Below, in pieces: positions 2,598 to 32,196 of a DNA stretch of 32,196 nt. The notes under the pieces are model-generated. The model did not search any database. It was not told the DNA's origin and was given only the letters and a program-made list of their open reading frames with translations. Source of the DNA: a bacterium. Its GTDB lineage: Bacteria > Patescibacteriota > Minisyncoccia > Phycocordibacterales > UBA10002. A program made the translations under genes and the position numbers. Where the stretch lies: contig JAUSFR010000065.1 in the NCBI GenBank assembly GCA_030649775.1, positions 1-32,196 of the forward strand, given 5' to 3'. Every line of letters begins with the position of its first letter. Positions within the stretch are counted from its first letter, which is position 1.

Positions 2598-2648
2598 ATG
2601 ATTAAGAAAATCAATGAGCAGAGCGACTATGATTTCTTAACCCCGTGA
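2598..2648 (+). CDS. Possible 16-aa uORF (MIKKINEQSDYDFLTP) upstream of the proS leader element
   Basis: ATG at 2598, in-frame TGA at 2646-2648 inside the outer stem of the three-way junction; no further support. Confidence 0.15.
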   Translation: MIKKINEQSDYDFLTP

Positions 2649-2740
2649 AGTATCCCGCCGAAGGCGGGATTTCCGCAAAGCGGAAATACTTCACATGGTG
2701 GCGATTTTTCTAAGTCGCGCCGCTCCTAAAAAATCAGCCA
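2645..2740 (+). promoter_or_regulatory. Structured leader: perfect three-way junction followed by start-codon-proximal hairpin (proS copy)
   Basis: GTGAAGTA(2645-2652)/TACTTCAC(2687-2694); TCCCGCC-gaa-GGCGGGA(2653-2669); TTTCCGC-aaa-GCGGAAA(2670-2686); TGGCGATTTTT(2699-2709)/AAAAAATC-a-GCCA(2728-2740). Confidence 0.75.
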
Positions 2741-8733: not shown

Positions 8734-8889
8734 CCAATAATCAATCACCAATCACCAAACAAATCCGAAAATTCCTAACCTTTCCCTTTTTTTGATTATT
8801 GTTTCTTGGTTATTGGTGATTGTTTGCAATTGACTTTTTGCGCAAAAATCAATAGAATCACCTTGTTACTATAGCTTAATTGCAAACCA

Positions 8890-9357: not shown

Positions 9358-9470
9358 CACAACACGAATTACACGAATCCAGAGAACGAATGATACGAAT
9401 AAAATGAGATCTACTATTCGGAACATTCGTGTCATTCGAATCTTCTATTTGTAAATTCGCATTGAGTTAC

Positions 9471-12999: not shown

Positions 13000-13008
13000 G
13001 TTACCCCG

Positions 13009-13104
13009 GTGAAATCCCGCCAAAGGCGGGGTCGGCCAAAGCGCCGACATATTTCACAGGGTGACGATTTTTAAAACTCTCAGAATCGTTAAAAAAATCA
13101 GTCA
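13009..13104 (+). promoter_or_regulatory. Structured leader: three-way junction plus start-proximal hairpin (mraZ copy)
   Basis: GTGAAAT(13009-13015)/ATTTCAC(13051-13057); CCCGCC-aaa-GGCGGG(13016-13030); GTCGGC/GCCGAC(13031-13048); TGACGATTTTT/AAAAATC-a-GTCA ending at 13104. Confidence 0.75.
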
Positions 13105-13205
13105 TGCTCATCGGCGAATACACACACACCATAGATGACCCCAGTAGTAGAAGCTCGAAGACTCGCTTCACTACGGGGCAAGCAAAAACAACACCATGCT
13201 TATAG
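13104..13205 (+). CDS. 33-aa leader ORF whose first 12 residues duplicate the MraZ N-terminus; its stop overlaps the mraZ start region
   Basis: MLIGEYTHTIDDPSSRSSKTRFTTGQAKTTPCL*; TAG at 13203-13205, mraZ ATG at 13196. Confidence 0.4.
   Translation: MLIGEYTHTIDDPSSRSSKTRFTTGQAKTTPCL
13139..13178. repeat. Hairpin/palindromic insert between the two mraZ start copies
   Basis: CCCC-a-GTAG-ta-GAAGC...GCTTC-a-CTAC-GGGG. Confidence 0.75.
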
Positions 13206-13630
13206 GAGAATACACACATACGATAGATGATAAAAATCGGTTATCCCTACCAGCGAAGTTTCGTGCCGAAATGGGAAAGAAGGTGGTGCTTACAAGAGGA
13301 CTGGACAAATGTGTGGCGATTTTTACCGAGAAGGAGTGGAAAAAGATTGCAGAGAAACTCTCCGAGTCAAGTATGCTCCAAGCCGACAGCCGAAGCTTCA
13401 ATCGTTTTATGTTCGGTGGAGCGGTGGAGACGGAGGTGGATACGATTGGACGCGTGCTTGTCCCCGACTTTTTGAAGACGTGGGGAGACTTGGGCGCCAA
13501 GGTGGCCGTAATTGGGGTTCAGAGCCGTGTTGAAATCTGGAACGACAAAGCGTGGGCGGCCAATAAGGACACGATAGAGAAGCAGGCCGATACGCTCGCG
13601 GAAAAATTGGGGAGTATAGGAGTCTTGTAA
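13196..13630 (+). CDS. mraZ: Transcriptional regulator MraZ
   Basis: MLIGEYTHTIDDKNRLSLPAKFRAEMGKKVVLTRGLDKCVAIF; second DGRVLVP-like half (DTIGRVLVPDFLK). Confidence 0.95.
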   Translation: MLIGEYTHTIDDKNRLSLPAKFRAEMGKKVVLTRGLDKCVAIFTEKEWKKIAEKLSESSMLQADSRSFNRFMFGGAVETEVDTIGRVLVPDFLKTWGDLGAKVAVIGVQSRVEIWNDKAWAANKDTIEKQADTLAEKLGSIGVL

Positions 13631-13633
13631 CAC

Positions 13634-13731
13634 AATGCGAATGACACAAATCACAGAGCGAATGACACGAATAGAATATAAGACTTACATTTTATTCGTG
13701 TCATTCGAATCGGGATTCGTAAATTCGCATT
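13634..13731. repeat. Self-complementary intergenic repeat (ATTCGT-word family) ending at the rsmH start
   Basis: AATGCGAAT.../...ATTCGCATT ends; CGAATGACACGAATA / TATTCGTGTCATTCG perfect 15-bp inner arms. Confidence 0.88.
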
Positions 13732-14623
13732 GAGTATGCATATTCCCGTTCTTTTACATGAAGTAGTAAATGGTCTCCAGGCGAAACCCGGAGAGACCGT
13801 CCTTGACGCCACGGTGGGTGGTGGAGGACACAGTGAAGCACTCTGTCAGGCGATGGGTGGAAACGCTCGGTTCGTCTGTTTGGATGCCGACGAGGACGCG
13901 ATAGAGCGAAGTCGTAAGAGGTTAGAAGTGTGCGGTTGTGAATTTCTGTTCTACCACACGAACTATCGGCATCTTGATGTGGCGCTCGCGAGTCTTGGCA
14001 TCACGGGTGTGAATCGCATTCTTTTTGACCTCGGACTTTCCAGTTTTCAGCTCGATGAGAGCGGACGAGGGTTCTCATTTATGCGCGACGAACCGCTTCA
14101 GATGACTTTCGTAAAGTTCCCGAAAGAGGGAAGCATTACGGCACAGACGATTGTGAACGAGTGGAGCAAGGAAACCATCGCGACACTACTTGAAAGTTAC
14201 GGAGAGGAGAAGCAGGCGTGGCGCATCGCGACAAAGATTGTGGAGGAGCGCGAGAAGGCACCCATCGTTACCACCTTACAGCTTGCGGGTATCGTGGAGT
14301 CGGTCGTCAAACGGAAAGGGAAAATTCACCCCGCGACCAAAACTTTCCAAGCACTGCGCATTGCGGTCAACGATGAGTTTCAGGGACTTCGAGACGGACT
14401 CGTGAAGGCGTGGGAAAAGCTTTTGCCCGAAGGTCGTATCGCCGTCATTTCGTTCCACAGTATGGAAGACCGCGTGGTGAAAGATTATTTTCGGGAACTC
14501 GGGACGACGGGAGCGGGAAAGGTACTCACCAAGAAACCGATAGTGCCGACTGAATCGGAGATAACGGCAAATCCTCGGTCCCGAAGCGCGAAACTCCGGA
14601 TTATTGAGAGAATAGGAGAATAA
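13730..14623 (+). CDS. rsmH: 16S rRNA (cytosine(1402)-N(4))-methyltransferase
   Basis: HIPVLLHEVVNGLQAKPGETVLDATVGGGGHSEAL; FDLGLSSFQLDESGRGFSF; VISFHSMEDRVVK. Confidence 0.96.
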   Translation: MSMHIPVLLHEVVNGLQAKPGETVLDATVGGGGHSEALCQAMGGNARFVCLDADEDAIERSRKRLEVCGCEFLFYHTNYRHLDVALASLGITGVNRILFDLGLSSFQLDESGRGFSFMRDEPLQMTFVKFPKEGSITAQTIVNEWSKETIATLLESYGEEKQAWRIATKIVEEREKAPIVTTLQLAGIVESVVKRKGKIHPATKTFQALRIAVNDEFQGLRDGLVKAWEKLLPEGRIAVISFHSMEDRVVKDYFRELGTTGAGKVLTKKPIVPTESEITANPRSRSAKLRIIERIGE

Positions 14624-14714
14624 TGAAAATAACAGAATAATAAAAATAAGAAAATAGCAGAATAATGAAAATAGGAAAATAGCAGAATAAGAAAATAACA
14701 AAATAGCAAAATAA

Positions 14715-28093: not shown

Positions 28094-28133
28094 AACTCAT
28101 CAATAACATGCTATAGCATGTTATTGATGAGTT
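28094..28133. repeat. Perfect 40-bp palindrome overlapping the recR stop codon
   Basis: AACTCATCAATAACATGCTA/TAGCATGTTATTGATGAGTT. Confidence 0.97.
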
Positions 28134-28740: not shown

Positions 28741-28834
28741 AAAAAAACACCAAACACCAAGATACAATAACCAAACAACAGTCAAAAAACAATAATCAAA
28801 TTCTGCTTGGAGCTTGTTTCTTGGTTATTGGTGA

Positions 28835-32158: not shown

Positions 32159-32196
32159 ATTCATTAATAACATGCTATAGCATGTTATTAATGAAT
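32159..32196. repeat. Perfect 38-bp palindrome at the window edge (may extend beyond)
   Basis: ATTCATTAATAACATGCTA/TAGCATGTTATTAATGAAT; 24-bp core AATAACATGCTATAGCATGTTATT identical to 28094-28133. Confidence 0.96.

Follow-up and report, generated by a model that had tools for sequence, protein, structure and literature searches.

Which kind of element occupies the bases directly upstream of the start codon at position 13104? In the 32,196-nt stretch of DNA analysed here (the window), a structured leader had been predicted at this site and, as another copy, before proS. The question is whether such a leader is a cis-regulatory RNA, a repeat that copies itself from gene to gene, or a repeat that has been put to use.

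Results

Architecture of the element

The element is about 100 bases long and built from covarying hairpins. Each copy has a stem, P1, closing off either two hairpins or a variable loop; next comes a start-proximal hairpin, P4, whose 3′ arm touches the ATG. The sequence and folds quoted in the original prediction for 13003–13106 were borne out by a sequence check and by folding. The 13003–13103 copy has a minimum free energy of −43.2 kcal/mol (z −5.4), which none of 200 dinucleotide shuffles equalled, and the proS copy gave a z of −4.9. The change at the base of the start-proximal stem from GGC/GCC in the proS copy to GAC/GTC in the 13003 copy is truly compensatory, as had been claimed. P1, a longer stem absent from the original list, encloses both upstream hairpins (P2 and P3), so that the three form a three-way junction (Table 1).

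Table 1. Features of the 13003–13103 copy, the adjoining mraZ start and the proS copy, in window coordinates
Feature	Position	Strand	Evidence
P0 hairpin of the proS copy; apex of GA type, orientation opposite to that of P4	2604–2638	+	
proS copy: P1 2640–2698, P4 2700–2739, flush with the proS ATG at 2740	2640–2739	+	
P1 5′ arm (ACCCCGGTGAAAT)	13003–13015	+	fold; covarying helix 1
P2 hairpin CCCGCC-AAA-GGCGGG, within P1	13016–13030	+	fold
P3 hairpin GTCGGC..GCCGAC, within P1	13031–13048	+	fold
P1 3′ arm (ATTTCACAGGGT)	13051–13062	+	fold; covariation
P4 5′ arm GACGATTTTT	13063–13072	+	fold; covariation
P4 3′ arm AAAAATC-a-GTC, flush with ATG 13104	13093–13103	+	fold; covariation; ATG-blind search
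33-aa ORF beginning at the ATG next to the element; the mraZ 5′ end is duplicated in its first 36 nt	13104–13205	+	
Second, partial element: class 3 P1-type hairpin CCCCAGTAGTAGAAGC..GCTTCACTACGGGG, as in L144 and L078	13139–13178	+	
mraZ ORF, true start	13196–13630	+	Pfam MraZ, E 4.9e-30

The interior of P1 can hold hypervariable loops of 50–110 nt with the flanking stems kept (L118, which covers three adjacent r-protein genes, and L143, L181, L176 and L124), and the P4 loop carries nested hairpin insertions in L008, L082, L024, L294 and L295, with sequence common to some copies.

Upstream of P1 lies a further hairpin, P0, which is the same GA-apex hairpin as P4 in inverted orientation (apex GA-RY-GNA-RY-GA in both, P0 on the top strand, P4 on the bottom strand). 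Of 104 copies, 53 have P0 upstream on the top strand and 5 have it on the bottom strand, and shuffles gave about 10; the P0 apex often starts 1–16 nt past the stop codon of the upstream gene. The inverted apexes, together with the position of P0 near the stop codon, show that the element is a pair of inverted hairpins, in many copies reaching from stop codon to start codon. Several r-protein copies (L018, L023, L029, L080, L081 and L098) have P0 replaced, upstream of P1, by another conserved hairpin, TAATGGCTCGGCCCGCAGTTTCGG..CGAAACTGCGG..GCCGAAC, which starts at the upstream stop codon. A long-range P0:P4 switch was also considered and rejected, as P0 and P4 of the same element did not covary (p = 0.29, in a set that includes some false P0 calls).

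The leader was originally placed upstream of mraZ and ending at ATG 13104. It is indeed flush with that ATG, but mraZ itself starts at 13196. The mraZ 5′ end is duplicated (13103–13138 and 13195–13230), the two stretches encoding the same 12 amino acids with six synonymous differences; the 33-aa ORF overlaps the real mraZ start, and the class 3 P1 hairpin sits between both mraZ 5′ copies. G003, a sister genome, has a single mraZ start, and the element there joins it directly. The element-attached mraZ 5′ copy looks, on our reading, like the ancestral start, because it is closer to G003 than the second copy is.

Copies are anchored at start codons of unrelated genes

The 917-kb genome was searched with a pattern that includes no ATG and allows up to 3 mismatches. 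This ATG-blind pattern gave 28 matches, versus 1 for the reversed control, and P4 was flush with the start codon of an ORF in 27 of them (25 at 0 nt), the 28th being a stray match; the search found no copy away from a start codon among the 27 real ones. A covariance model matched 48 times, many matches forming opposite-strand pairs because the element is nearly palindromic. The element at 13003–13103 is one of about 30 copies in the genome. The genes downstream include proS, rpsS, rplV, rpsD, rpsK, rpmA, rpmE, rpmG, rpmJ, nusA, nusG, serS, metK, glmS, nrdB, ftsX, ftsZ, rnpA, clpC and yebC (MraZ, ProS, L31, NusG, NusA, S19 and the RNR small chain were checked against Pfam; other targets were named from their N-termini). 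Where the region upstream of the gene is long (mraZ, clpC and serS), copies are equally flush with the ATG, and inspection revealed promoter-like boxes just upstream of several copies.

Target genes also recur between genomes, among them nusA, ftsX, rplN, rpmE, clpC and metK. Same-gene pairs across families numbered 57, against about 9 expected if 600 genes, an assumed figure, were equal targets.

Covariation is strong, without a preference for the mRNA strand

Over 18 copies from the genome itself, the structure was 90.6% paired versus 75.6% when shuffled, with covariation above all shuffles and slid controls; P4 was 98.8% paired, its covariation again above every shuffle and slid control. 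Among 76 distinct 45-nt P4 hairpins, each variable pair kept Watson–Crick pairing above all 5,000 shuffles, in tests that are not independent since the 76 sequences are related. The P4 apex reads UC-RY-NNN-RY-UC on the mRNA strand and GA-RY-GNA-RY-GA on the other, and its two-base apical stem covaries (GC/GC, GU/AC, AC/GU, AU/AU).

A structure selected in the mRNA should tolerate G.U pairs. Mismatches at paired P4 positions on the mRNA strand were, however, A.C in 23 cases versus G.U in 9, and at the variable P1 position A.C in 21 versus G.U in 1; selection specifically for mRNA structure is therefore doubtful. Of 104 P4 hairpins, 90 were stabler on the strand opposite the mRNA, and the upstream P0 was stabler on the mRNA strand. 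The original proposal that selection maintains the structure before two unrelated genes stands in so far as a conserved, covarying structure is kept where unrelated genes begin, some 30 of them in this genome and the same ones in other families. Selection for an mRNA structure as such is put in doubt by the excess of A.C over G.U, by the greater stability of P4 on the opposite strand, and by clean empty sites in close relatives.

The original prediction had further assigned the leader a two-state design, with a competing stem, ACGATT/AATCGT, using the 5′ arm of P4. The 13003 copy does have this stem, at −7.1 kcal/mol (the start stem has −9.3 kcal/mol), but it is not conserved: of 101 copies, only 6 carry in the loop a perfect complement of at least 5 nt to the P4 5′ arm, and G003 lacks the stem in its mraZ copy. 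Comparison of copies revealed that the start-proximal stem is kept in every copy and the competing stem lost in most (absent from 95 of 101). Competing folds as such average −6.2 versus −4.4 kcal/mol in shuffled loops, and those of 26 of the 101 copies beat 95% of shuffles.

Distribution among genomes

The P4 pattern was present in 41 of 299 genomes of the order, with 0 matches for the reversed control, and among 196 genomes across the phylum it was present in the source genome only. Of 61 genomes drawn from the genus and order, the covariance model matched 27. Carriers among the matches listed were Nomurabacteria, Zambryskibacteria, Taylorbacteria and Yonathbacteria, plus one Uhrbacteria contig with clpC. 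Within the same genus, the element is absent from G005, G006 and G011, whose listed sizes are 500–600 kb versus 800–1000 kb for element-rich genomes. Matches in unrelated phyla (Bacillota, Bacteroidota and others), among those listed, look like chance hits lacking the hairpin; 4 pattern matches in viral contigs were of atypical length and probably chance.

No mobilising enzyme was found in a presence/absence comparison of Y1 transposases (PF01797), carried by 17 of 20 genomes with the element and by 16 of 20 in which the pattern is missing; RAYT/IS200 (PF01797) was rejected as mobiliser, being present without correlation to the element. Rfam gave no gathering-level match and nothing plausible at E ≤ 1, and literature searches returned no description of the element.

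Empty sites, copying and inheritance

The rpsS–rplV junction reads TAA-TC-ATG in G003 and TAA, 165 nt and ATG in G000, where the 165-nt spacer folds with a z of −10.6. Comparison of the empty site, TAATCATG, with the occupied TAATGGC...AATCATG at rplV gave no clear target-site duplication (the RplV query, exact over its first ~45 residues and approximate over the remainder, served only for fetching junctions). Sampled r-protein junctions in G005, G006 and G011 measured 1–9 nt. The same junctions in element-bearing relatives were mostly filled by longer spacers of several unrelated families, many of them significantly palindromic.

Copies at different genes within one genome reached identities of 0.91–0.94, and orthologous rpsK, glmS, metK and nusA copies between species were at the level of random pairs (~0.6). 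Orthologous copies of high identity were found at mraZ (0.88), rpmA (0.92), rpmE (0.85) and rplN (0.86), and these look vertically inherited. Copying and inheritance both occur. The type of P1 differs between species at the same gene.

Other palindromic spacer families in the window precede rsmH, lysS, rseP and recR. One (CGAATGACACGAAT..ATTCGTGTCATTCG..AAATTCGCATTGAGT) lies at 13631–13735 and 9358–9470, 0–5 nt from the rsmH and lysS starts (z −8.2 and −5.7). Another (CAATAATCAATCACCAAT / TTGGTTATTGGTGATT) lies at 1380–1463, 8734–8889 and 28741–28834, before rseP, greA and recR (z −5.2 to −7.5). Two near-identical 34-nt perfect palindromes (TCATCAATAACATGCTATAGCATGTTATTGATGA) are found 4 kb apart, at 28097–28130 and 32161–32194, and the rsmH–ftsL junction (14611–14714) is filled by an A-rich near-tandem repeat with ~8-nt steps of AAAATAGC-like units and no predicted structure.

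Discussion

A copy-spreading element at start codons

The reading we prefer, with confidence that is evenly balanced, is that the family spreads by copying, as a REPIN/BIME-like pair of inverted hairpins tied to start codons, and is no ordinary riboswitch. In its favour stand the anatomy, the covariation, the copy number, the anchoring at start codons, the same target genes in different genomes, the empty sites of relatives and the near-identical copies inside single genomes, all of them observed, together with the other palindrome families at these junctions in sister species and the missing G.U excess on the mRNA strand. Inverted-pair palindromic elements, each running from P0 through P1 (its stem enclosing two hairpins or a variable loop) and P4 to the ATG, would copy themselves within Parcubacterial (Paceibacteria) genomes, presumably through a single-stranded hairpin intermediate and an enzyme supplied in trans. 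Copies would be fixed at housekeeping genes, between the stop codon of the gene upstream (or a promoter) and the start codon, and retained only where the start codon stays usable. In a transcribed 5′ UTR, P4 probably influences the initiation of translation and would lower or uncouple it, because it extends over the A and U of the AUG. Counted against copy-spreading are the recurrence of the same genes, the orthologues that look vertically inherited, the failure of the Y1 comparison to yield a mobilising enzyme and the rplV site with no evident target-site duplication; the absence of copies away from start codons likewise argues against random insertion.

It is possible, and we suggest it only tentatively, that a miniature hairpin element, whose insertions are specific to the gap from stop codon to start codon, has been domesticated in one Parcubacteria order, where it serves dozens of core genes as their standard translation-initiation region. 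If so, these genomes would have a transposable 5′-UTR system. Repeats like these usually lie dispersed between genes and keep clear of translation signals. The present ones are anchored at the start codons of genes for ribosomal proteins, tRNA synthetases, division and transcription, in genomes of less than 1 Mb, and sister genomes keep junctions of 1–9 nt, a natural experiment in the growth of operon junctions and the rewiring of core-gene translation.

We consider it rather unlikely that the family is a cis-regulatory RNA class in which P4 is an AUG-hiding translational operator and one trans factor controls a housekeeping regulon. Such an operator would account for the constant position of P4 at the ATG, the strong covariation, the recurrent target genes and the promoter-like boxes that place several copies in a 5′ UTR, yet it sits poorly with the lack of a G.U preference on the mRNA strand and the greater stability of P4 on the other strand, with P1 types that switch between species at the same gene, and with presence or absence within one genus at clean empty sites. 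Neither candidate for a conserved alternative structure, the competing stem or P0:P4 pairing, was conserved. The strict ATG anchoring and the recurrent targets nonetheless give an mRNA-operator role some probability.

A purely selfish repeat of the REPIN/BIME/MITE type, without a role and flush with the ATG only because stop–start junctions of 1–9 nt leave no alternative, is improbable. Ancestral junctions are tight, other palindrome families occupy the same sites, and the inverted-pair architecture with compensatory changes is as in REPINs (PMC3116915); however, copies are just as flush at the long-upstream genes mraZ, clpC and serS, all 27 real copies lie at start codons, and the P4 sequence is conserved across families. 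A switch in which the P4 5′ arm alternates between the start-codon arm and a competing loop stem is very improbable: competing folds are on average stronger than in shuffled loops, but the quoted stem is missing from nearly all copies, the G003 mraZ orthologue included.

Comparison with known systems

Like T-box leaders, the element precedes a tRNA synthetase gene (proS), and its GGGTGG resemblance is superficial; unlike them, most of its downstream genes are unrelated to aminoacylation, and the Rfam T-box covariance model gave no match. Like the element, ribosomal-protein leaders and translational operators put RNA structure across the site where translation of r-protein genes begins. In contrast to these, one structure stands at r-protein, tRNA synthetase, cell-division, nusA, clpC and metK genes, which makes a single autoregulator implausible, and it has no Rfam match.

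Neisserial Correia elements (CREE/NEMIS) and other MITE-like small repeats are short, palindromic, located next to genes and co-transcribed. The element is likewise a short palindrome beside genes, but it is without a clear terminal inverted repeat plus target duplication, and its P4 is anchored on the ATG.

REPINs, or BIMEs, are inverted REP doublets moved by RAYT transposases; they have an inverted-pair layout with compensatory changes, lie at random in extragenic space and are linked to Y1 transposases (PMC3116915). The element is REPIN-like in layout and a candidate member of the class at most. Like REPINs and BIMEs, it has two inverted conserved hairpins around a variable spacer, many extragenic copies, compensatory hairpin changes and near-identical copies within one genome. 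Unlike REPINs, which are random in extragenic space, it is always flush with a start codon; it showed no link to RAYT in the Y1 presence/absence comparison, and it carries the extra three-way junction of P1.
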